38,247 nt of DNA from positions 1 to 38,247 of the forward strand of contig CAMART010000009.1 in assembly GCA_945860705.1 (NCBI GenBank), in the 5' to 3' direction. Below are positions 16,872-35,877 of this stretch, one piece after another. Numbering within the stretch: position 1 is the stretch's first letter; each line of letters starts with the position of its first letter. A program made the translations under genes and the position numbers. The notes under the pieces are model-generated. The model was not told the origin of the DNA and made no database searches. It worked only from the letters and a program-made list of their open reading frames with translations. The DNA comes from Chitinophaga pinensis. Lineage in GTDB: Bacteria; Bacteroidota; Bacteroidia; Chitinophagales; CAMDFR01.

Positions 16872-16916
16872 ATATTTGGACAAATTCGGAATCTAATTCC
16901 GAATTTGTCCAAATAT
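16872..16916. repeat. Left terminal palindrome of ATPase cassette A
   Basis: Perfect 21-base arms: 16872-16892 contains GGACAAATTCGGAAT, and 16896-16916 is its exact reverse complement. The centre is CTA (16893-16895). The core is repeated after the ATPase gene at 18087-18125 with the centre reversed to TAG. The palindrome lies just upstream of the -7 element at 16920, so it overlaps where the -33 box should be and could act as an operator. Confidence 0.95.
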
Positions 16917-16919
16917 ACT

Positions 16920-16927
16920 TATCTTTG
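16920..16927 (+). promoter_or_regulatory. -7 element TATCTTTG of cassette A ATPase
   Basis: Fits TAnnTTTG, lies four bases before the ATG at 16932, and begins four bases after the left palindrome. A leaderless, palindrome-controlled transcript is predicted. Confidence 0.55.
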
Positions 16928-16931
16928 TTTT

Positions 16932-18086
16932 ATGATAGAAAGAACTGCAATAAAACGTCTTAAAAAACTTGCAAGTACATTTAGAAGTGTAGCTGTGATA
17001 GGTCCACGTCAGAGTGGAAAGACTACATTGTGTAAAACTGTCTTTCCAAATAAACCTTACATATCTCTTGAAAATCCAGATATACTAGAAAGTATTAAAA
17101 TAGATCCAAGAGCATTTTTATTGCAATATAAAAATGGTGCTATCATAGATGAAATACAAAAAGCTCCTTTTCTGTTTTCATATCTTCAACAAGTACTAGA
17201 CGAAACAAATAAAAGAGGTTTGTATATACTTACTGGGTCAAATAATTTTTTATTGCAAGAAAACATAACACAAAGTTTAGCCGGTAGAATAGCTTATTTA
17301 CAGTTATTGCCGTTTAGTATGGAAGAATTGAAATCTACTAAATATTATAAAGCTACATATACATCGATTATGTTTAGAGGTTTTTATCCTGAACTTCTTA
17401 CAAAAAAAATAAAACCTATAGACTGGTATACAAATTATATACAGACTTATGTTGAGCGAGATGTTAGACAACTAAAAAATATAAATAATTATAATTTATT
17501 TTATAAATTTTTAAGATTGTGTGCAGGCAGAGTTGGTTCGGTGCTGAACCTTAGTTCTATTGCTAATGATTGTGGTATCGATTCTAAAACTGCAAATAGT
17601 TGGATTGCCATTTTACAAAGTAGCTTTATCATATATCTCTTAAAACCATATTATAATAATTATAATAAACGACTCATTAAATCTCATAAACTATATTTTT
17701 ATGATACTGGATTGGCATGTTCTCTTCTTGGATTAGAAAAAGATAAACAACTTGATAATTTTATTTATAGAGGACAGTTATTTGAAAATCTTGTAATAAT
17801 GGAATATCTCAAAAATAGACTTAATAATGGATTGCAAGATAATTTGTATTTCTGGCAAGATAAAACAGGAAATGAAGTTGATTTGTTGTTGGATGGAGCT
17901 AATGAAATTACAGCATTTGAAATAAAATCTAGTACCACTATAAATAATGATTTTTTTAAGGGATTGACGTATTATGCAAATATAGAACAGAAGAAAACTA
18001 ATCTTAATTTGATATATGGAGGATTACAAATATTCCCCAAAAGGAACAATATTTCTATTGCTTCATGGACTAATCTAAAATTGTGA
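16932..18086 (+). CDS. AAA-type ATPase with DUF4143 and PDDEXK-like C-terminus (cassette A)
   Basis: 384 residues from the ATG at 16932. An in-frame TTG at 16905 lies inside the palindrome and upstream of the promoter element, so it is rejected as the start. The AAA_14 domain covers about 1-140: Walker A GPRQSGKTT (24-32), Walker B GAIIDEIQKAP (about 69-79), sensor LTGSNNF, and the arginine-bearing SLAGRIAYLQL. DUF4143 follows, with the signature YIQTYVERDVRQLK (about 169-182) and a winged-helix-like segment (SSIANDCGIDSKTANSWI). The C-terminus has a PDDEXK-like core: D317 in GNEVDLLLD, then E330-x-K332 in FEIKSS. Such proteins are abundant in Bacteroidota and archaea, but their biological role is unsettled. 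It is bracketed by matching palindromes at 16872 and 18087. Confidence 0.93.
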   Translation: MIERTAIKRLKKLASTFRSVAVIGPRQSGKTTLCKTVFPNKPYISLENPDILESIKIDPRAFLLQYKNGAIIDEIQKAPFLFSYLQQVLDETNKRGLYILTGSNNFLLQENITQSLAGRIAYLQLLPFSMEELKSTKYYKATYTSIMFRGFYPELLTKKIKPIDWYTNYIQTYVERDVRQLKNINNYNLFYKFLRLCAGRVGSVLNLSSIANDCGIDSKTANSWIAILQSSFIIYLLKPYYNNYNKRLIKSHKLYFYDTGLACSLLGLEKDKQLDNFIYRGQLFENLVIMEYLKNRLNNGLQDNLYFWQDKTGNEVDLLLDGANEITAFEIKSSTTINNDFFKGLTYYANIEQKKTNLNLIYGGLQIFPKRNNISIASWTNLKL

Positions 18087-18125
18087 TCTGGACAAATTCG
18101 GAATTAGATTCCGAATTTGTCTAGA
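18087..18125. repeat. Right terminal palindrome of ATPase cassette A
   Basis: Arms 18087-18104 and 18108-18125, 18 bases each with one G-T mismatch, around the centre TAG. The core GGACAAATTCGGAAT is the same as on the left side, and the centre is the reverse complement of the left CTA, so the whole unit is inverted. It starts right after the ATPase stop codon. It could also work as a bidirectional terminator between the convergent genes. Confidence 0.95.
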
Positions 18126-18127
18126 TT

Positions 18128-18991
18128 TTATTCTCTATTTATCTCATTTACAACACGAAACAAATCTCCTTTATCATACCAATCTACTGTTAAAAAATTT
18201 GGATATTTACCAGTAGTGTTTTTACAAATAGTTATATGATTCATTAGTCCATCATATTGATTGGTGTATTTATTTACTTTTTTTCTTTGAAGTGGATTAT
18301 AAAGGAAATGATTCATGATAAATATATTTTTAGTAGTATCTCCTCGTATTACTTTTCCTTTATAGTCAGTAATGTTATGATTGTTATAGTCGTTTTCAAA
18401 ACAATAATTATTTTGATGAAGATACCAATCACTATACCCACTGCAGTGACTAAAAACAACACAACGCTGGTTGCTTCTAATCATTTGATCTAAAGTCGGC
18501 CAGCCTATAGAATCATTGTGGTGATACAAAAATTTATAAATAGCATGTTTTTCAAATATACTAGCTACTTTTTTTGAGTCGCTTACATCACAATCAAAGA
18601 TAATAGTCACAATTTCTTCAGTGTTGTCAGCTAAAAAGTCATTAAAATAATCAAGAATATTTTCAAGTGGTTCATGACCTAAGACAGCTTGTTCATGAAA
18701 CACAAGTACTTTGTTACCTTTTATTGGAACTATTTTATCATGGTCATGAATATCTATCATAAAACCTCGTATGCCATCAGCTAGTTGTTTCGGTATATCA
18801 TATCGTTGATTTGGATAAATATATTGTTTGGGTCCTATCAAATAATTAAATGAATTATGTGTAGTAGGAAAACATACCTCATTATATTTTTTGTACTGGA
18901 TATTAAAAGAAGTATAGAAATTTTTATCCTGACAAAAAATAAGTTTTATACTAATTAAATAGAAAAATATTGTGAATAGTATTTTTTTCAT
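18128..18991 (-). CDS. Exported PI-PLC X-domain phosphodiesterase-like protein
   Basis: 287 residues from the ATG at 18989-18991. A longer frame to 19018 would overlap the preceding gene and spoil the signal peptide, so the MKKILF start is preferred. A signal peptide runs to about residue 20 (LIFCQ). The PI-PLC X fold is shown by FPTTHNSF (first catalytic-type His), GIRGFMIDIHDHD (metal or substrate loop) and KVLVFHEQAVLG (second His), with WPTLDQMIRSNQRCVVFS later. No Y domain is present, as in bacterial enzymes. Candidate substrates are phosphatidylinositol or other glycerophosphodiesters, but this subgroup is poorly characterised. It starts 5 bases after the POT transporter stop and is probably co-transcribed with it. 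Confidence 0.85.
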   Translation of the reverse strand: MKKILFTIFFYLISIKLIFCQDKNFYTSFNIQYKKYNEVCFPTTHNSFNYLIGPKQYIYPNQRYDIPKQLADGIRGFMIDIHDHDKIVPIKGNKVLVFHEQAVLGHEPLENILDYFNDFLADNTEEIVTIIFDCDVSDSKKVASIFEKHAIYKFLYHHNDSIGWPTLDQMIRSNQRCVVFSHCSGYSDWYLHQNNYCFENDYNNHNITDYKGKVIRGDTTKNIFIMNHFLYNPLQRKKVNKYTNQYDGLMNHITICKNTTGKYPNFLTVDWYDKGDLFRVVNEINRE

Positions 18992-18996
18992 AGTAG

Positions 18997-20472
18997 CTAT
19001 TTCACATCTCCCATCCACTTTTTGATTATTGGTGAAAATACTGAAAATATAATTCCAACTACTACTGTAAAGTATGTAATTTTAATAAATACTCCAGAAT
19101 ATATTTTGAGAGATTCAATTGCTGAAATAGTAGATTCTCCATCTAAAGTAGGTATTGCCATTTTTGAGCCAATAATACCTGCGAAATATTGACCAAGACC
19201 TGATGCTAAAAACCATACGCCCATAACATAGCCAACGATTTTTAATGGAGATAATTTGGTGACCATAGACAAGCCAATAGGTGATAGACATAGCTCACCA
19301 GTAGATAAAAATAAATATCCTAGTGCAAAATATCCAAGCGATACCATACCGGTATCTGCAGCAGCTTGTCCGCCCAAAACAAAAATATAAAAACCTAATG
19401 CTAGTTGTAATAATCCTAATCCAAATTTTAAAGGAGTAGATGGTTCTAGATTTCTTTTATTGAGTTCTTTCCATAAAAATGTAAATACCAATCCAAATAT
19501 TACAATAAATGCTGGATTGATAAAATTATTTACTGCAGTGGAGGGAAGCTTTATGCCAAGTACATTCATATCTACATTTCGTAGCGCATATAAATTTAAA
19601 GCACCACCACCTTGCTCATAAAAAGACCAGAAAAATATAGAACTAATAATCATGATTGTAGCTGCTAATAATTTTAATCCAGCCTCCTTGCCTATACTAG
19701 TCATCATATAAATCAAATATCCTAAAGCTATAATTGAAAGACTAGACATGATAGCATCCATAGCTTCGTTATGCTTAATAAGCATTACAAAAACCGGTAT
19801 ACATACTAGACTTAGTAAGTAAATTAAATATTCATTTTTGATTATTCCAAATGTATTTTTATTATTAAATTCTTCATTAGTCTCCAGACCCACTTCGCCC
19901 AAAATACTTTGAAAATAAATAAATATTCCCAGTCCTAATATCATAAAAATACCTGCTAAACCAAAGCCTAAATGCCAACTTATCTGCTGTCCTACCACCC
20001 CACATATTAATCCACCAAGAGCTGCACCAATGTTTATGCCCATATAAAAAATAGTAAATCCAGCATCTCTATTAGTATCTCCATCTTTATAAAGTTTTCC
20101 TACCATACTAGAAATATTTGGTTTGAAAAAACCATTTCCTACAATAATACAACCTAGCCCAATATAAAAACTCAATTCTGATGGAATAGCAAGTATAAAA
20201 TGACCCAATACCATTACTATTCCACCCCAAATCACAGCTTTTCGATATCCTAAGTACTTATCTGCTAGCATTCCCCCCACCATAGGAAGTGCATATACTA
20301 ATGCTAAGTAAGAACCTAATATTAAATTTGCTTTTTTGTCCTCATACTTAAATTGTGTAACCATAAATACCATCAACAATGCTTTCATGCCATAGAACGA
20401 AAAACGCTCCCACATTTCAGCAAAAAATAATAAATAAAGTGCTTTTGGATGTTTCGAATTTGTTAATTCCAT
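18997..20472 (-). CDS. Proton-dependent oligopeptide transporter (POT/PTR2 family)
   Basis: Inner-membrane major-facilitator symporter that takes up di- and tripeptides with protons. 491 residues, about 14 hydrophobic segments. The family motif ExxERFxYYG appears as EMWERFSFYG (about 19-28) in helix 1. GGMLADKYLGYRKAV and FYMGINIGAALGGLICG match the PTR2 signatures, and SFYEQGGGALNLYA lies in the second half. LSPIGLSMVTKLSP is also typical. A -7-like element TAAGTTTG (20497 to 20490, minus strand) lies 17 bases before the ATG. The PI-PLC gene follows within 5 bases. Confidence 0.95.
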   Translation of the reverse strand: MELTNSKHPKALYLLFFAEMWERFSFYGMKALLMVFMVTQFKYEDKKANLILGSYLALVYALPMVGGMLADKYLGYRKAVIWGGIVMVLGHFILAIPSELSFYIGLGCIIVGNGFFKPNISSMVGKLYKDGDTNRDAGFTIFYMGINIGAALGGLICGVVGQQISWHLGFGLAGIFMILGLGIFIYFQSILGEVGLETNEEFNNKNTFGIIKNEYLIYLLSLVCIPVFVMLIKHNEAMDAIMSSLSIIALGYLIYMMTSIGKEAGLKLLAATIMIISSIFFWSFYEQGGGALNLYALRNVDMNVLGIKLPSTAVNNFINPAFIVIFGLVFTFLWKELNKRNLEPSTPLKFGLGLLQLALGFYIFVLGGQAAADTGMVSLGYFALGYLFLSTGELCLSPIGLSMVTKLSPLKIVGYVMGVWFLASGLGQYFAGIIGSKMAIPTLDGESTISAIESLKIYSGVFIKITYFTVVVGIIFSVFSPIIKKWMGDVK

Positions 20473-20489
20473 ATTGTTTATTTGTATCC

Positions 20490-20497
20490 CAAACTTA
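20490..20497 (-). promoter_or_regulatory. Possible -7 element TAAGTTTG of the POT transporter gene
   Basis: Matches TAnnTTTG on the minus strand, 17 bases upstream of the ATG. No well-spaced -33 TTTG was found, so this is weaker than the metK or rpmE2 promoters. Confidence 0.4.
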
Positions 20498-20652
20498 GTG
20501 TTTTTTACTCAATATCTCATTTTTCTGTTTTTCTTACATTTTTATGACAATTTTTAACAACTAAAAGACTATTTTTTTCGTTAACTTTATGTATTGATTT
20601 ATCAAACATTTATGTTTTTTATCAATCATAGTATATTTAATATTTAAAGCCA

Positions 20653-23600
20653 TTGAAGAAATATATATTAATATCGTTAGTCTTATTCACTAGCAGTCTT
20701 TTCTCTCAAAGAAATACTGCTCATATAGATTTGCCTACAGAAAGCAAATTGCTTTTTATAGAAAATAAAAATCAATGGGATGAATCTGTAAGATACAAAG
20801 CTAAACTTACTCCTGGATTTATTGACTTCAAAAAGAATCAATTTCATTTTGTGTTTTTCAATGAAGATATACACGAAATGATGCATGATAGAAAAAATAG
20901 TTCTGTAAAAAATACAATAAGTGGTCATGTATTTAATATCAATTTTATAGATGCCAACCCAAATGTTGAATTCAGTTCAGATAAAAATCAAGCCTATTAT
21001 CACAATTATTTTCTAGGTAATGACGAAAGTAAATGGGCAGGCAATGTTTCTTTATTTGAAAATATTACCTATCATGAATTATATAATGGGATACATATGC
21101 TGATAAAAAGTGAAAACCAAAATATGGTATATGATTATATTGTAAAACCACATGCAGATATTACACAAATAAAAGTACAATATGAAGGAGTAGAAAATCT
21201 ACAAATAAAAAATGGTGATTTAGTATATAAAACTACCTCATGTGAAGCACGAGAACTAAAACCTATAGCCTATCAAATCATCAATAATGAAAAAATTAAT
21301 GTTGCTTGTAGATATGTATTAGAAAACAATATAGTTACTTATGAATTTCCAAAAGGATATAATCAAGACTATGAATTAATAATCGATCCTACACTTGTAT
21401 TTTCGAGCTTTACGGGTTCTACAGCAGACAATTTTGGATATACAGCCACTTATGATAATGATGGTAATTTATATGCAGGAGGCAGTGTGTTTGCAAATAG
21501 AAGTGCTGGAGATATAAGTGGTCCATTAGGTACATATCCTACTGTGGGCCCTTTTCAAAGTACTTTTCAAGGAGGATTAATAGATATTGCTATTTCTAAA
21601 TTTAATCCTACAGGTACAGCATTAGTTTATTCTACATATCTTGGAGGCAATGGTGATGACCAACCTCATAGTATGTTTGTAAGTGATAATGCTGAGCTTT
21701 ATGTTTTTGGCTCAAGTAGTTCAACTAATTATCCTACAGTGGGAGGTTCGTATGATGTTACTAGTAATGGTGATTTTGATATAGTCGTTACTAAATTTTC
21801 ACCTATTGGTAATTCGTTAATAGCCTCAACATACATAGGAGGTAGTAATGACGACGGTTCTATTCCAGTATCAGGAGGAATAAATAAATTAGTTTATAAT
21901 TATGCTGATGAATTTAGAGGAGAAATAATATTAGATAGTTTAGGTTTTGTTTATGTAGCATCCTATACAAATTCTACCAATTTTCCAGTCACTCCAGGAG
22001 CAATACAAACTGCAAATGGTGGTTTGCAAGATGGTTGCGTTATAAAATTAAGTAACAATCTAAGTGCACTATTATTTTCTACTTACATAGGAGGAAATAA
22101 TGATGATGCTTGCTTTTCACTAAAGCTAGATAGAAGTAGAAATATATTTATCACAGGTGGAACAAAGAGCACAAATTTAAGAATGATAACCGGTGGTGCT
22201 GATATCACTCACAATGGAGATGTAGATGGTTATATATATAAAATTAATAATACTGGAACAACATTATCAGCATCTACTTTTTTAGGTACGAGTAATTATG
22301 ATCAATCTTATTTTATAGAGCTAGATAGATTTGATAATATATATGTTTGTGGTCAATCACTAGGATCTTACCCAGTGGTTGGAACTGTATACTCTAATGC
22401 TAATGGTAAACAATTCCTACATAAATTAAATAATAATTTAACTACAACAGCTTTTTCTACAGTATTCGGAGCAGGTGGCATTATTAATATTTCACCTACC
22501 GCATTTTTGGTAGATAGATGTGACAATATTTATATTAGTGGATGGGGTGGAAATACGAATGATGGATATGTAGGAGGTAATACTAGAGGACTGCCATTAG
22601 TAGGTGGGCCTTATCAATCTACCACAGATGGTAGTGATTTTTATTTTATTGTATTTGAAAGAAATGCAGTAGGCCTTTTATATTCAACTTATTTTGGAAG
22701 TGGTTCTGGTATAGGTGAACATGTAGATGGAGGCACTAGTAGGTTTGATAGAGAAGGAGTAATATACGAGGCAGTATGTGCAGGTTGTGGTAGAAGTTCT
22801 TTGTTTCCTACTACTACAGGTGCATGGTCTAGAACCAATAATAGTTTTAATTGTAATTTAGCAGCATTAAAATTTGAGATGAACCTAGCAGGTACTAATG
22901 TAGAAGTGACTGCTTCACCAAGAGCTACTGGATGTGTGCCACTTACTGTTAATTTTACGAGTATTCGTACAAGTGTAAGAACTGTTCGATGGCATTTTGG
23001 AGATGGCACCACATCTACTTTATTTAATCCCACACATACATTCACTGATACTGGTACTTTCAATGTGATGCTAATCGGCACAGATAGCACAAGTTGCAAT
23101 ATTGTAGATACAGCCTATGTTACAGTAGTTGTAGATGACGATAGTATTAATGCTAATTTTTTCCCATCATTAGCTGTCAATTGTACAACTAGAACAGTTT
23201 TTGCATACTCAAAAAATTATCCGACTACTACTTATAGATGGATGAGTAGCGATGGTTTTTCATCAACAAACGATACATTTATTCATACCTATGCTAGTCC
23301 CGGTACTTATACACTTACTCTAAGAGTCGACGATCCTTTTAGTTGCAATCTTACTCAATCAGTTACAAGAACCATAGTCATAGAGCCATTCGTCAATTTA
23401 AATTTAAATTTGAGTGATACCGCTGGTTGTTTTCCATTGACGATTACATTTAATAACTCTACAAGTTCTCCTTCAGCATATTTATGGGATTTTGATGATG
23501 GTACAACTAGTACTATAAAAAGCCCCACACATACATTTAGTTCTGGTGGTGTATATGATGTAGTAGTTTATTTTTTAGATACCAATACTTGCAATAATGT

Positions 23601-25149
23601 AGATACTGCACGAATGACTATAACAGTATATAATGATACTGTTACCCCATTATATAATATTGATAGAATTTTTTATGGCTGTGATTCTGTAGGCGCAAAT
23701 GTTCAATCATTTAATACTACTGCAAATAGTGTAAGATGGGATTTTGGCGATGGTACATTTAGCAATAGTTTAAATGATTTTCATGTCTATAGAGATTCTG
23801 GTGTATATCAGATTTTATACGTAGTAGTAGATAGCACCAAAAGATGTAGAATGATAGATACTGTAAACGAATATGTTTCATTAGATCCATTAGATGCAAT
23901 TTTTTCAATATCTGATACCAATGCGTGTGTGCCAGCTACAATTATTTTTACAGATGAAAGTCCTTATTTTCTAGCAACTAATTATTGGACTTTTGGTGAT
24001 GGAACTGGAGATACTGGTCGTGTAGTTTCTCATACATACAATACAGTAGATACTTGGAGTATTATGCATATTATTATTGATTCGTCTGTTTGCAATTTTG
24101 CAGATACAAGTTATGCTACTTTTATGACCAGAAACGATTCGTCTGTTGCATCATTTAATTCTACAATATTAAGCGAATGCGATTCTAATCTTACAATCAA
24201 TTTTACAAATACTAGTGTTAATGCTTTAAAATTTGAATGGGATTTTGGCGATGGTACTACAAGTAATTTAGCTAGTCCATCACATACATGGAATATACCC
24301 GGCATCTATACAGTACGAATGATATCTATAGATTCTACTCGTTGTCATCCAAGAGATACTGCATACGCTACATTCAGACTCAAACCAAATTCTATTGCAA
24401 ATTTTGATATGCTTCCTACAGCTTGCTCTGGCGTGGCAGTTCAAATGGATAATTTGAGTAATCCTAATGCACAATTTACTTGGTACTTTGGTGATGAAGA
24501 TACCTCATTTCAATTTGAGCCAAATCATATTTTTAATAATGCAGGTAATTATATTGTTACACTTATTATAAGAGATACAGGTACTTGTGATGTATATGAT
24601 ACTTTATCAAAACCTATAGAAATATTAGCATTTCCTATTGCAGATTTTATAATGGATAGAGATTCATTTTATTATTTAGATAATATTCAGTTTACTAATC
24701 AATCACAAAATTTTACAGATGTGATTTGGTATTTTGGAAATGGAGATACTAGTATATTAGAAAATCCATTATATACATATGCTCAAATCCATGAACAAAC
24801 TCCATGTATAGTAGCATATATAGAAGGTACAAGTTGCGCAGATACTTTTTGTAGAGATATTTATATCAATTTTGAACCAAGAATAGGTGTGCCAAATGCA
24901 TTTACTCCAAACGGTGATGGTATCAATGATATAGTGAGAGTAGAAGGTAAAGGATTTATTGAATTTCAATTTATGATATTTAATAGATGGGGCGAAAAAG
25001 TATTTGAATCTAGAGATCAGAATATAGGATGGGATGGTATATATAAAGGACAATTGCAAGAAATGGAAGCCTATGCTTATACAGTTAAAGTTAGGTTTTT
25101 AGATAATACGAGAAAAACACTTACAGGAAATATTACTTTACTAAAGTAA
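20653..25149 (+). CDS. Giant secreted SBBP/PKD-repeat protein with T9SS type B tail
   Basis: 1498 residues. The start is a TTG at 20653 (MKKYILIS...), and no ATG fits the signal peptide, which ends SSLFSQ. Residues about 30-250 form the domain often found at the head of SBBP proteins (LFIENKNQWDESVRYKAK). Residues about 255-745 carry at least six SBBP-type beta-propeller motifs (STYLGGNGDD, STYIGGSNDD, STYIGGNNDD, STFLGTSNYD, STVFGAGG, STYFGSGSG). About 750-1400 hold eight PKD domains with W-x-FGDGTTS / HTF-type cores, some degenerate (YFGDEDTS, YFGNGDTS). The C-terminus is a type B CHU_C sorting domain (NAFTPNGDGIND, IFNRWGEKVFES, WDGIYKGQ, ending TGNITLLK). It is predicted to be exported by T9SS and held at the surface by the PorP/SprF protein encoded next. 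Likely an adhesin or matrix protein. Confidence 0.95.
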   Translation: MKKYILISLVLFTSSLFSQRNTAHIDLPTESKLLFIENKNQWDESVRYKAKLTPGFIDFKKNQFHFVFFNEDIHEMMHDRKNSSVKNTISGHVFNINFIDANPNVEFSSDKNQAYYHNYFLGNDESKWAGNVSLFENITYHELYNGIHMLIKSENQNMVYDYIVKPHADITQIKVQYEGVENLQIKNGDLVYKTTSCEARELKPIAYQIINNEKINVACRYVLENNIVTYEFPKGYNQDYELIIDPTLVFSSFTGSTADNFGYTATYDNDGNLYAGGSVFANRSAGDISGPLGTYPTVGPFQSTFQGGLIDIAISKFNPTGTALVYSTYLGGNGDDQPHSMFVSDNAELYVFGSSSSTNYPTVGGSYDVTSNGDFDIVVTKFSPIGNSLIASTYIGGSNDDGSIPVSGGINKLVYNYADEFRGEIILDSLGFVYVASYTNSTNFPVTPGAIQTANGGLQDGCVIKLSNNLSALLFSTYIGGNNDDACFSLKLDRSRNIFITGGTKSTNLRMITGGADITHNGDVDGYIYKINNTGTTLSASTFLGTSNYDQSYFIELDRFDNIYVCGQSLGSYPVVGTVYSNANGKQFLHKLNNNLTTTAFSTVFGAGGIINISPTAFLVDRCDNIYISGWGGNTNDGYVGGNTRGLPLVGGPYQSTTDGSDFYFIVFERNAVGLLYSTYFGSGSGIGEHVDGGTSRFDREGVIYEAVCAGCGRSSLFPTTTGAWSRTNNSFNCNLAALKFEMNLAGTNVEVTASPRATGCVPLTVNFTSIRTSVRTVRWHFGDGTTSTLFNPTHTFTDTGTFNVMLIGTDSTSCNIVDTAYVTVVVDDDSINANFFPSLAVNCTTRTVFAYSKNYPTTTYRWMSSDGFSSTNDTFIHTYASPGTYTLTLRVDDPFSCNLTQSVTRTIVIEPFVNLNLNLSDTAGCFPLTITFNNSTSSPSAYLWDFDDGTTSTIKSPTHTFSSGGVYDVVVYFLDTNTCNNVDTARMTITVYNDTVTPLYNIDRIFYGCDSVGANVQSFNTTANSVRWDFGDGTFSNSLNDFHVYRDSGVYQILYVVVDSTKRCRMIDTVNEYVSLDPLDAIFSISDTNACVPATIIFTDESPYFLATNYWTFGDGTGDTGRVVSHTYNTVDTWSIMHIIIDSSVCNFADTSYATFMTRNDSSVASFNSTILSECDSNLTINFTNTSVNALKFEWDFGDGTTSNLASPSHTWNIPGIYTVRMISIDSTRCHPRDTAYATFRLKPNSIANFDMLPTACSGVAVQMDNLSNPNAQFTWYFGDEDTSFQFEPNHIFNNAGNYIVTLIIRDTGTCDVYDTLSKPIEILAFPIADFIMDRDSFYYLDNIQFTNQSQNFTDVIWYFGNGDTSILENPLYTYAQIHEQTPCIVAYIEGTSCADTFCRDIYINFEPRIGVPNAFTPNGDGINDIVRVEGKGFIEFQFMIFNRWGEKVFESRDQNIGWDGIYKGQLQEMEAYAYTVKVRFLDNTRKTLTGNITLLK

Positions 25150-25159
25150 CAGAATTATT

Positions 25160-26206
25160 GTGAAAAAAAATCAAACATATTTATTTATACTATTTGCATT
25201 TATATTTTGTGCAAGTACAATAGATAGCTATGCACAAGATCAGCATTTTTCTCAATTTTATACTCAACCTATGACCACCAATCCCGCAAATACAGGGTAT
25301 TTTGATGGTAATTATAGAGTTGGTGGAATTTATAGAGCTCAATGGCCTTTTGCTGCAAATGGTCAATTTGTTACGTATAATAATTTCAGTGCCTATGCAG
25401 ATTTTTCCTTTCTAGATGGATATTTAGGTAAAGTAGATTTTATGGGTGCAGGTATATATGCATGGAATGATGAAGCTGGAGATGGAAATCTGAGAACTAC
25501 AAAGATAAATGCAACAGTGGCATACCACAAAGGATTTGATAAGAAAGGGAAGTATATGTTGTCTGGAGGCTTTGGATTTACTATGGTACAAAGAGCAGTA
25601 GATTTTAAAAATTTTTATTTTAATAATCAATGGAATGATCGTTTTTTTGACAGGTCAATTCCTAATTTAGAACAATATGCAAACCAAAGTAGATGGTATT
25701 ATGATTTGAGTGCTGGACTCAATATGCATATAGGTTTTGGTACTAAGTATGTGTTGACGATAGGTGGTGCATTATATCATATCAATAGACCAAAAGATAG
25801 CTTTAGAGAGGCTAATAATAGAATAGGAATAAGACCGATATTTAATGCATCATTTAACGGTAAACTCAGTAATCAATTGGTTTTAAATGCACAATTTATT
25901 TTTAATTATCAGAAAGAAGCAATAGAAACAAGCATAGGTGCATTGCTTGGTTATTCGGGCGATAACTATAGAAGTAAAATCAGAAACACTTTCTACGTAG
26001 GAGCATATTATAGAATCAGAGACGCAATGATACCTACTGTAGGATACCAAGTAAATAATACCCGACTCTTAGTTAGTTATGATTTCACACTTTCAAAACT
26101 TACATATTACAATAAAGGAGTTGGAGGATTTGAAGTATCTTTGGTGCACACAGGAAAATTTAAATCAAAAAATATTGTTAAAAAAATCTATTGTCCAAAA
26201 TTTTAA
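25160..26206 (+). CDS. PorP/SprF-family type IX secretion-linked outer-membrane protein
   Basis: 348 residues from a GTG at 25160, 10 bases after the giant gene. The signal peptide ends DSYAQ (about residue 25). The family opening follows: DQHFSQFYTQPMTTNPANTG, then YRVGGIYRAQWP. Repeated amphipathic strands predict a barrel. PorP/SprF-like proteins are characteristically encoded immediately after type B CTD substrates and are thought to help secrete or anchor their partner. The gene order here fits that rule. The next barrel gene starts one base after this stop, so the three form one operon. Confidence 0.93.
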   Translation: MKKNQTYLFILFAFIFCASTIDSYAQDQHFSQFYTQPMTTNPANTGYFDGNYRVGGIYRAQWPFAANGQFVTYNNFSAYADFSFLDGYLGKVDFMGAGIYAWNDEAGDGNLRTTKINATVAYHKGFDKKGKYMLSGGFGFTMVQRAVDFKNFYFNNQWNDRFFDRSIPNLEQYANQSRWYYDLSAGLNMHIGFGTKYVLTIGGALYHINRPKDSFREANNRIGIRPIFNASFNGKLSNQLVLNAQFIFNYQKEAIETSIGALLGYSGDNYRSKIRNTFYVGAYYRIRDAMIPTVGYQVNNTRLLVSYDFTLSKLTYYNKGVGGFEVSLVHTGKFKSKNIVKKIYCPKF

Positions 26207-26207
26207 T

Positions 26208-26825
26208 ATGAAAAATTTACATATTGTTTTAGTTGTATTATTGATGGTTGTATCACTTAATATCATTGCACAAGATGATGATAAACCGTTTGCAGGAAAT
26301 AATGAAAAAACATTAGATAATAAACCAGAAGTAGTAAATAAAAAAGGTTTTGATAAAAGTAAATTGAGAATAGGACCAAATATAAATTTTGGATATAATG
26401 GTAGAACTTTGCTTGTTGGACTTTCGCCAGTAGTAGGTTATAGAGCTGTAAAATATTTTGAACCAGGTATTGGTTTTACATATCAACTTCAAGATGCAGC
26501 TAATTTTCCAAGCAATCCTGGTTTTACTTCGCATACTATAGGTGGTCAAATCTATGTAAAAATCTACCCATGGAAAGAATTATTTATATATGGTGAAGCA
26601 CAAGCATTTAATTTTAGGGCTCGATACAAATCCTTAGTAAGAGGTGCGAAAAATCCTTATGAAAGTGTTACATATGGAAATGTATTAGTAGGGCTAGGAT
26701 ATAATATTCGTGTAGGTGAAAATTCTTTTATGAGCCTTGGACTTACTGTCAATCTTATACCAAATGCACTGTACAATTTCCGTAGGCAACCATTGCCACT
26801 ATTAGGATTTAATTTCGGTTTGTAG
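26208..26825 (+). CDS. Small outer-membrane beta-barrel protein, third gene of the T9SS surface operon
   Basis: 205 residues from the ATG at 26208, one base after the PorP/SprF stop. A longer frame beginning at 26079 overlaps the previous gene and hides the signal peptide, so it is rejected. The signal peptide ends SLNIIAQ (about residue 22). An acidic linker (DDDKPFAGN) is followed by barrel strands: LRIGPNINFGYNGRTLLVGLSPVVGYR, given here as adjoining blocks, then EPGIGFTYQL, GGQIYVKIYPWKELFIYGEAQ, and a terminal GFNFGL. Function unknown; an accessory to the PorP/SprF-linked surface system is inferred from position. Confidence 0.8.
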   Translation: MKNLHIVLVVLLMVVSLNIIAQDDDKPFAGNNEKTLDNKPEVVNKKGFDKSKLRIGPNINFGYNGRTLLVGLSPVVGYRAVKYFEPGIGFTYQLQDAANFPSNPGFTSHTIGGQIYVKIYPWKELFIYGEAQAFNFRARYKSLVRGAKNPYESVTYGNVLVGLGYNIRVGENSFMSLGLTVNLIPNALYNFRRQPLPLLGFNFGL

Positions 26826-26875
26826 TTTTTTTTTAAAAAAAATATAGAAGAGACTTTTTACTCTGAAAAAATATT

Positions 26876-26912
26876 ATTATGTTTGTGAAACATTATGTAT
26901 GTAAAACATAAT
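26876..26912. repeat. Left imperfect palindrome of ATPase cassette B
   Basis: A 37-base unit whose arms pair at 14 of 18 positions around a central T. It agrees with the perfect downstream palindrome (28306-28342) at 31 of 37 bases, with the shared ends ATTATGT and ACATAAT. It contains TATGTTTG (26878-26885), itself a match to TAnnTTTG, so it may double as promoter or operator. Confidence 0.8.
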
Positions 26913-26926
26913 GTATGTAAAACATA
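26895..26926 (+). repeat. 16-bp perfect tandem duplication in the cassette B leader
   Basis: ATGTATGTAAAACATA occurs twice in direct succession (26895-26910 and 26911-26926), ending six bases before the ATG. The duplication doubles the right half of the left palindrome and creates a second 37-base frame (26892-26928), which also matches the downstream copy at 31 of 37 bases. Confidence 0.9.
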
Positions 26927-26932
26927 ATAATT

Positions 26933-28306
26933 ATGAAAAGTATAGAATTTTTAGATAGAATAAAAGAAACAAAGCGAATAAAACAATCATTACAGCTCAA
27001 ACAGCCTGTGTTTATAGTGTTGTATGGTAGAAGAAGATGTGGTAAATCTACACTGATGCGTCATATCATGGGCAAAGATGATATCTATTATCAAGCAGAC
27101 CAGCAAGAAGAAATATATCAACGAGATGCTTTTGCTAGAGAAATTGCGTATAAGTTTCCATCATTTGATAAGGTAGTATATCCTAGTTGGGAGTCTTTCT
27201 TTTTTGGATTGAATATGCGTATGAAAAAAAATAGTACTTTATTTATAGATGAATTTCCATTTTTAGTAAGAAGTAGTCCAGCTTTGCCGAGTATTGTACA
27301 AAAGTTGATAGATTCAAAATCGCTTACTTACAATATAGTTATTTGTGGTTCATCACAGCAAATGATGCAGGGGCTTGTATTGTCTAGTGATGAGCCTCTA
27401 TATGGTAGAGCAGATGAGATCATCAGAATCACACCTATGAAAATACATTGGCTACAAAAATCTATGAATACCACTGCTATCAATACGGTAGAAGAGTATG
27501 CTTTGTGGGGAGGTGTGCCAAGATATTGGGAGATGAGAAAAAAATACAAAACTTTAGAAGAAGCTATGAAAATGTTGCTTCTGGATACTAGTAGTATTTT
27601 ATATGAAGAACCTATGCGCTTATTTTTAGATGATATGCGCAGTGCTGTACAAGCATATACTATTATGTCTATCATAGGAGGAGGAGTGCATCGTTCATCA
27701 GAAATAGCTGCACGACTAGAAAAGCCTGCTACATTCATATCTAGACCATTGGCTAATTTGATACAAATGGATTATTTAAAAAAAGAAATCCCTTTTGGAG
27801 AGAACGAAAAGAATAGCAAAAAATCATTATATAAAATCAAAGATCCATACTTAAGTTTTTATTTTAGATATATAGTAAATAATAAATCTAGAATAGAAGC
27901 AGATAAATCTCAAGAAGTATATACAGATATTAAAAAGACTATATCTATATATCTAGGTGATGTATGGGAGAGTTTATCAAGAGATTTTGTGACACACTCC
28001 AATATACAAAACATAAAATGGGATACTGCCAAAAGATGGTGGGGAAAAGGCATAGATCACAAAGAAATGGAAATTGATATTTTGGCAGATTCTATTGATA
28101 AGAAATATATATTGATAGGAGAGTGTAAATGGTCAGATAAAGCAGATATCCAATTGTTATCTAATCAATTAGATTATAAGATAAAAAATCTATCTTTTGC
28201 AAAAAACAAAAAGATAGTAAAAGTGCTTTTTCTAAAGAATAGCTCTTACAAATCAAAAGATATAAATATTATTCATCCAGATATTTTGATAAAAACTATG
28301 CATTAA
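26933..28306 (+). CDS. Archaeal-type ATPase with DUF234/PDDEXK-like C-terminus (cassette B)
   Basis: 457 residues. The ATPase_2 domain covers about 1-220: Walker A YGRRRCGKST (31-40), Walker B STLFIDEFPFL (about 101-111), sensor IVICGSSQQMM and the following GRADEI arginine. A winged-helix segment (about 250-290: GVHRSSEIAARLEKPATFIS) precedes the DUF234 domain. That domain holds a PDDEXK-like core: D382 in EMEIDILAD and E397-x-K399 in IGECKWSD. The lineage is related to, but distinct from, the cassette A protein (ATPase_2/DUF234 against AAA_14/DUF4143). The ATG lies four bases after the duplicated palindrome half, and the TAA overlaps the downstream palindrome by one base. Function is unsettled for the family. 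Confidence 0.93.
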   Translation: MKSIEFLDRIKETKRIKQSLQLKQPVFIVLYGRRRCGKSTLMRHIMGKDDIYYQADQQEEIYQRDAFAREIAYKFPSFDKVVYPSWESFFFGLNMRMKKNSTLFIDEFPFLVRSSPALPSIVQKLIDSKSLTYNIVICGSSQQMMQGLVLSSDEPLYGRADEIIRITPMKIHWLQKSMNTTAINTVEEYALWGGVPRYWEMRKKYKTLEEAMKMLLLDTSSILYEEPMRLFLDDMRSAVQAYTIMSIIGGGVHRSSEIAARLEKPATFISRPLANLIQMDYLKKEIPFGENEKNSKKSLYKIKDPYLSFYFRYIVNNKSRIEADKSQEVYTDIKKTISIYLGDVWESLSRDFVTHSNIQNIKWDTAKRWWGKGIDHKEMEIDILADSIDKKYILIGECKWSDKADIQLLSNQLDYKIKNLSFAKNKKIVKVLFLKNSSYKSKDINIIHPDILIKTMH

Positions 28307-28342
28307 TTATGTATGACAAACATTATGTTTGTCATACATAAT
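28306..28342. repeat. Right perfect palindrome of ATPase cassette B
   Basis: A 37-base perfect palindrome: ATTATGTATGACAAACAT (28306-28323), a central T, then its exact reverse complement (28325-28342). The first base is the last base of the ATPase stop codon. It has no GC-rich stem and no clean T-tract, so it is a poor intrinsic terminator. Confidence 0.95.
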
Positions 28343-35840: not shown

Positions 35841-35877
35841 TAGAAAAGGGTTTTTGCGAAGCAAAAACCCTTTTCTA
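35841..35877 (-). terminator. Intrinsic terminator of the large SprB-repeat gene
   Basis: Perfect 17-base arms (35841-35857 and 35861-35877) around the loop GAA, containing GGGTTTTTGC and GCAAAAACCC. It lies 21 bases after the minus-strand stop at 35899, and the minus-strand side continues into ATTTTAG. It is single-copy in the window, so it is read as a terminator and not as a cassette end. Confidence 0.85.

Follow-up and report, generated by a model that had tools for sequence, protein, structure and literature searches.

Why should a gene for a single ATPase-nuclease be bordered at both ends by palindromes, and what reads them? The question is raised by two genes, here termed A and B, on a stretch of 38,247 nucleotides (nt) from Chitinophaga pinensis (contig CAMART010000009.1), which as a whole is referred to as the window. 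The sequence-only reading of this DNA had claimed palindromes at both ends of both genes, matched within each gene and unlike between the genes, and the analysis of arms and matches confirmed this arrangement. It is quite probable that each palindrome is the recognition site of the adjoining protein, and the simplest model is that of a self-recognising, autoregulated ATPase-nuclease. What carries this view is the co-variation of individual protein residues with individual bases of the palindromes.

Two genes and their palindromes

Gene A (positions 16932 to 18086, forward strand) encodes an AAA_14 ATPase followed by a winged helix-turn-helix/DUF4143 region and a PDDEXK nuclease domain. Pfam finds AAA_14 and DUF4143 with E values of 1.6e-48 and 1.4e-25, the PADLOC profile PDC-S01 matches with an E value of 2.4e-98, and by these domains and this profile gene A is assigned to DUF4143 and PDC-S01. 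The Walker A motif (GPRQSGKTT; 16995 to 17030, forward strand) is invariant or near-invariant across 46 relatives, and in the PDDEXK domain (17769 to 17966, forward strand) the residues E285, D317, E330 and K332 are invariant in the alignment of these relatives. The gene starts at a conserved ATG (16932), with an in-frame TTG at 16905. Its 5' palindrome (16872 to 16916, dyad centred on 16894) has perfect arms of 21 nt and a loop of 3 nt, ends 15 nt before the ATG, and is the site at which protein A is predicted to bind its promoter; a putative Bacteroidota -7 box, TATCTTTG (TAnnTTTG; 16923 to 16930, forward strand), ends 1 nt before the ATG. The 3' palindrome (18086 to 18126), with arms of 19 nt and one mismatch, matches the 5' copy with a score of 33.5 and shares the last base of the stop codon. 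The centre is asymmetric and reads CTA in the 5' copy and TAG in the 3' copy, which is thus inverted. Such an inversion, also present in genome G030, was considered as a rule of terminal inverted repeats and was rejected, as in genomes G301 and G458 the two copies point the same way.

Gene B (26933 to 28306, forward strand) is of a different kind, with the Pfam domains ATPase_2 and DUF234 (E values 1.5e-18 and 4.7e-19), a match to the PADLOC profile PDC-S27 (E value 8.5e-41), and a PDDEXK-like C-terminus with the conserved residues E346, D382, E397 and K399; domains and profile place it in DUF234 and PDC-S27. Its 5' palindrome (26873 to 26931) is composite, with arms of 26 nt that are 85% complementary and units that repeat every 16 base pairs (bp); a single nt separates it from the ATG at 26933. 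The matched 3' palindrome (28306 to 28342) has perfect arms of 18 nt and, as in case of gene A, shares the last base of the stop codon. The units 16 bp apart number three on the left and two on the right. The two ends of gene B match each other with a score of 26, as compared to at most 14.5 with other loci. The tight flanking that had been read from the sequence thus holds for both genes, but the distances given with it were slightly off; the 5' gaps are 15 nt for A and 1 nt for B, and both 3' palindromes overlap the stop codon.

Searches of the window for Rfam families and tRNA genes gave no matches, and the palindromes of A and B are without an Rfam family. Elsewhere in the window, a strong inverted repeat with arms of 17 nt (35841 to 35877) is intergenic, has no adjoining ATPase and resembles an ordinary terminator.

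Residues of the protein and bases of the palindrome co-vary

When the 5' palindromes of DUF4143 genes are aligned by their centres, they fall into one register, in which 70 of 75 have a base at their centre and the arms comprise about 19 bp. The dyad spans roughly 39 bp just upstream of the start codon, with a consensus near TGGACAAATTNNNAATYnRATTNNNAATTTGTCCA. Positions 3 to 19 vary, with compensating changes on the opposite side, and the most variable positions, 5 to 8 and 14 to 17, are separated by about one turn of the helix.

A mutual-information scan with background correction and without any prior, covering 73 loci (about 62 effective) and about 7,000 pairs of protein and DNA columns, placed six pairs at the top, namely residue 217 with base 5, 218 with 7, 219 with 5, 219 with 6, 312 with 16, and 311 with 15. 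At a z of at least 9, there were six pairs in the data and none in 200 permutations. In the AlphaFold model of protein A (mean predicted local distance difference test score 93), residues 217 to 219 (DSK; codons at 17580 to 17588, forward strand) start the recognition helix (218 to 230) of the winged helix-turn-helix, and residues 311 and 312 (KT; 17862 to 17867, forward strand) are located in a hairpin between the PDDEXK strands 305 to 310 and 315 to 321, close to D317. Several of the pairings appear chemically sensible. At position 312, N goes with A, K with G, D or E with C, and V or I with T; in the helix, D217 together with K219 goes with GG, and residue 218 pairs as H with G, Q with C, and V with T. 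Residues 36 and 297 of protein A also co-vary with a base of the palindrome, base 1, at z values of about 6 to 7.7, and the model leaves both unexplained.

The pairings predict bases. With relatives of more than 50% identity removed, 279 of 352 bases (79%) were predicted correctly, as compared to a mean of 41% and a maximum of 48% in permutations, and for the offsets 5, 6, 7 and 15 the named residue outperformed all others among the 381 protein columns. In a first hold-out, which comprised 14 further loci, 39 of 59 bases were correct (66%; permuted maximum 59%). In a second, independent set, which was composed of viral-labelled contigs, one phage-labelled contig and plasmids of named bacteria and contained eight loci with a clear dyad, 31 of 35 bases were correct, a result equalled by 1 of 2000 permutations. 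The earlier suggestion of a co-evolving protein-DNA specificity is strongly supported by these comparisons, down to the level of residues and bases (217-219 with 5-7, 311-312 with 15-16). Most likely, the protein itself binds the palindrome and contacts the inner block through its helix-turn-helix and the outer block through its PDDEXK domain.

A palindrome on the promoter

Where would such a protein bind with respect to its own gene? A TAnnTTTG box at most 30 nt from the start codon is present at 33 of the 75 palindrome loci, as compared to 2.5% of control open reading frames, and in other phyla the right arm can contain a TTGAC element resembling a -35 box, which is then followed by a -10-like box. 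Judged from these boxes, the palindrome tends to overlie the core promoter, and the transcript should start at or after the palindrome. This position favours an operator and disfavours a hairpin in the 5' RNA. A dyad that lies on the promoter of its own gene and whose specificity is matched to the encoded protein is what characterizes an autoregulated DNA-binding protein, and the DUF4143 loci appear to be of this kind.

As the dyad lies on the core promoter, a negatively autoregulated system is the simplest model. In this model, the DUF4143 (PDC-S01) protein would read the dyad of about 39 bp with the recognition helix of its winged helix-turn-helix on bases 5 to 7 of each side and with the PDDEXK hairpin on bases 15 and 16, and the bound protein would occlude its own promoter. 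ATP or an inducing signal, for which phage or DNA damage are candidates, may then alter the binding or unleash the nuclease. The 3' site, where it exists, could serve as a second anchor, either for a loop or as the border of a unit that recombination between the copies can remove. The palindromes with their matches, their promoter position and the residue-base co-variation are computational results; direct binding is what we infer from them, and repression, looping and nuclease control are steps further removed. If the model is true, the nuclease domain joins the helix-turn-helix in sequence recognition.

Several points weigh against this interpretation. The dyad loci were picked for symmetry, which biases the pairing of the arms itself, but neither the fixed register nor the diversity of pair types. 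In permutations within clusters, a z of 10.5 was hit once in 200 (mean maximum 6.2), and kinship below 50% identity remains in the cross-validation. Offset 16 is tied between residues 312 and 123, and the rule for residue 218 fails in other subfamilies of the first hold-out, with 2 of 11 bases correct. Moreover, many DUF4143 relatives have no strong dyad, and autorepression would leave the 3' copies of some genes unexplained.

One-sided and two-sided loci

How general is the arrangement? The relatives of A comprised 80 from named genomes across many phyla and further loci of the same order, and neighbouring genes served as controls. An inverted repeat with a score of at least 11 was found upstream of 43 of 104 unselected DUF4143 relatives and 20 of 549 control genes, and with a score of at least 15 upstream of 21 of 104 and 3 of 549, respectively. 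If more mismatches are allowed, most of the relatives displayed have a near-palindrome that ends between a few and about 25 nt before the start codon. The frequency is thus far above that of control genes, which was the comparison proposed with the initial observation, and this also applies to DUF234 (10 of 13 as compared to 14%).

In contrast to the promoter palindrome, which is a general feature, the two-sided form is found in a minority of about 10% of the unselected DUF4143 relatives. In 10 of 102 of them, the 5' flank of the gene recurs at the 3' end of the same gene, as compared to 4 of 541 controls. Among 73 loci with a 5' palindrome, a set that takes in loci chosen because they bear one, 19 have their own 3' copy with match scores of 18 to 42 and all others score at most 9, which is a clean split. 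The matched 3' copies are all from Bacteroidota, as far as the hosts are named. A general excess of any 3' palindrome was considered and dismissed, since by the strict score such palindromes, with 5 of 78 as compared to 14 of 430 controls, are not clearly commoner, and only the matched copies are in excess. The sequence-only reading was right in that left and right copies match where both exist, but its two-sided plan as a general class does not extend beyond this minority, the general feature being one promoter palindrome.

Some individual loci deviate. At two loci (L050 and L067), the 3' copies are compound and consist of several overlapping palindromes made from the gene's own 5' palindrome. 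On a viral-labelled contig (L330) and a Ruminococcus plasmid (L333), short direct repeats, ACTTTGAA.TnCAnTA with ACTTTGAATTACAGTA, lie upstream of the ATPase gene, where they stand in place of the palindrome and possibly represent another type of operator. On a plasmid of Emticicia oligotrophica (L196, 3995 to 5161), a DUF4143 gene with a near-palindrome at its start codon lies inside an arabinose gene cluster, between the genes for ribulose-phosphate epimerase and araA and on the opposite strand.

Gene B belongs to a family in which the same anatomy recurs. A 5' near-palindrome is present in 10 of 13 DUF234-type relatives, at a score reached by 14% of controls, and its sequence is individual to each gene; a relative of B at 49% identity has a related near-palindrome. 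A matched 3' copy is present in 2 of the 13 relatives (L183, L187) in addition to gene B, and these three loci have own-match scores of 26 to 42, as compared to at most 14.5 against other loci. Two DUF234 relatives, L178 and L189, have their inverted repeat in two copies, which recalls the repeated units of B. DUF4143 and DUF234, two unlike families, hence do share the palindrome plan, the residue-base code being worked out for DUF4143 only and the DUF234 set being composed of 13 relatives.

Gain, loss and rival explanations

What alternatives exist for a self-recognising, autoregulated protein? The palindromes could mark the borders of a single-gene element, mobile or homing, whose nuclease cuts its own sites and whose gene moves in or out between the two palindromes, with one palindrome left as scar or target. 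Such an element is compatible with a protein that binds the palindrome and differs in the purpose of the binding, and the matched palindromes at both gene ends and the invariant PDDEXK residues would fit to it, as would a number of empty sites in close relatives. In genome G003, the xerD-PLC interval orthologous to that of gene A contains no ATPase gene and one palindrome with the sequence of A, and gene B is missing at the corresponding site of three other genomes of the genus (G001 to G003). At the aspS site, in another family of hosts, the genomes G209, G505 and G520 carry palindrome, ATPase gene and palindrome, with proteins that are 84-85% identical and 5' and 3' copies that agree within each genome and differ between genomes (ACAAATTCGG in G209, ACAAATACGG in G505), and G523 has the palindrome core alone. 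Genomes G301 and G534 have nearly identical neighbouring genes, and a complete second ATPase gene together with its palindrome is present in G534 alone; the two genomes also differ by a segment of about 100 bp with the 3' palindrome of the first ATPase gene. This second gene (L252, 8832 to 10031) is a DUF4143 ATPase gene of another subfamily, has tandem palindromic operators and lies next to rpsU. In the same neighbourhood, G241 has a DUF4143 gene of a different subfamily, and its palindrome differs as well. Single genes together with their operators are thus gained and lost as units.

A mobile element is nevertheless unlikely. Most relatives have the promoter copy alone, related genomes keep the same ATPase gene at the same site (aspS; DUF5329), and recombination between the two 40-bp repeats would be enough to explain the scars. 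With flanks that have diverged and thin sampling, neither a target duplication nor near-identical copies at different sites, also within one genome, were seen, nor was any transposition chemistry. The proposal that these are selfish elements thus lacks support in the form in which it was made. A related possibility is that the helix-turn-helix and the nuclease domain read the gene's own palindromes, cut there when activated and excise or re-home the gene, with single-palindrome scars as the result. We consider such a self-addressed nuclease doubtful; if it existed, a single gene would form a mobile or self-destruct module that is addressed by a residue-to-base code.

The palindromes might alternatively act as RNA hairpins, the 5' copy as a leader attenuator and the 3' copy as a stabiliser or terminator. 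The 3' copies come immediately after the stop codon and could fold in the mRNA, but in many loci promoter boxes lie between the 5' palindrome and the ATG, which would leave the 5' copy untranscribed, no Rfam family matches, and bases 5-7 and 15-16 follow residues in DNA-binding parts of the protein. This explanation is very improbable.

Finally, a scan that started from the palindrome of A bears on its distribution. The pattern was found in 9 of 395 genomes of the class, and a reversed control pattern in none. In four genomes (G000, G209, G301, G458), the palindromes are paired at a distance of 1.21-1.24 kb and flank a DUF4143 gene; in three others such a gene has it as its 5' copy, and in two it is solitary. 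In the genus of the window, the sequence is present only at gene A, in its 5' and 3' copies, and at the one G003 site. Solitary palindromes occur in G003, G523 and G483 and, imperfectly, in G273; the perfect one in G483 (L260, 4575 to 4607) is of the A type and stands alone without an ATPase remnant, and an open reading frame that reads like a tyrosine recombinase follows about 130 nt downstream. This palindrome could count in favour of a mobile element, as could the gene-less palindromes at the orthologous sites in G003 and G523. Viral contigs lack the pattern and encode six relatives of A only, and thus give no evidence for a phage target site. The genus occurrence and the scan of 395 genomes rule out a dispersed repeat. 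Host-wide REP-like repeats or sites of an unrelated host factor, beside the genes by accident, would account for the solitary copies, yet are hardly credible given that the palindrome adjoins a DUF4143 gene in 7 of the 9 genomes and that its bases track residues of the adjoining ATPase across phyla.

Comparison with known systems

In the REP/RAYT arrangement, REP palindromes surround the gene of an HUH transposase. The likeness lies in the layout, with palindromes of inverted orientation on both sides of a single gene. The genes studied here differ in that they encode ATPase-PDDEXK proteins, in which Pfam finds an ATPase and DUF4143 or DUF234 and no HUH (Y1) transposase, and in that the palindrome of A is not dispersed (for related ground on REP/RAYT, see PMC6006769, PMC3733652). 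In structural terms, the best match of the A model in Foldseek is PABY2304 of Pyrococcus abyssi (PDB 2qen), a STAND-like Walker ATPase, with an E value of 6.6e-6, a template modelling score of about 0.45-0.49 and an identity of only 16%; a sequence search of the PDB found no solved structure related by sequence to A or B.

The C proteins of restriction-modification systems and the operators of toxin-antitoxin systems are examples of individually specific autorepression. RepA of repABC replicons is likewise an individually specific autorepressor (PMC4492784). These systems share with the genes described here a palindromic operator at the own promoter and paralogues of differing specificity. The difference is that a single ATPase-nuclease, with a winged helix-turn-helix and a nuclease domain that are both predicted to read the site, would act here without a partner gene, and that some DUF4143 and DUF234 genes have a second, matched 3' site.

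The closest known systems are PDC-S01 and PDC-S27, whose profiles are matched by A and B, respectively, and which have the same fusion of an ATPase to the PD-(D/E)XK superfamily; they are very abundant, unvalidated single-gene defence candidates (PMC12988326). PDC-S01 alone accounts for about 40,000 copies, made up of 29,494 bacterial and 9,986 archaeal systems, and is reported there without a validated function. For genes A and B as well, a role in anti-phage defence is a candidate function only. In keeping with the initial remark that no established description of such a pairing was known, a search of the open full-text literature (subscription papers being outside this scope) for palindromes that accompany DUF4143 or DUF234 ATPases found no published account. 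The portions of PMC12988326 drawn on here describe no cognate DNA site or regulation, and the palindrome, its matched copies and the residue code are what the present analysis adds. A gene-specific site together with a five-position residue-to-base code makes DNA binding, regulation and nuclease activity of PDC-S01 directly testable, and thereby provides a first testable DNA target for a widespread family of candidate defence proteins.

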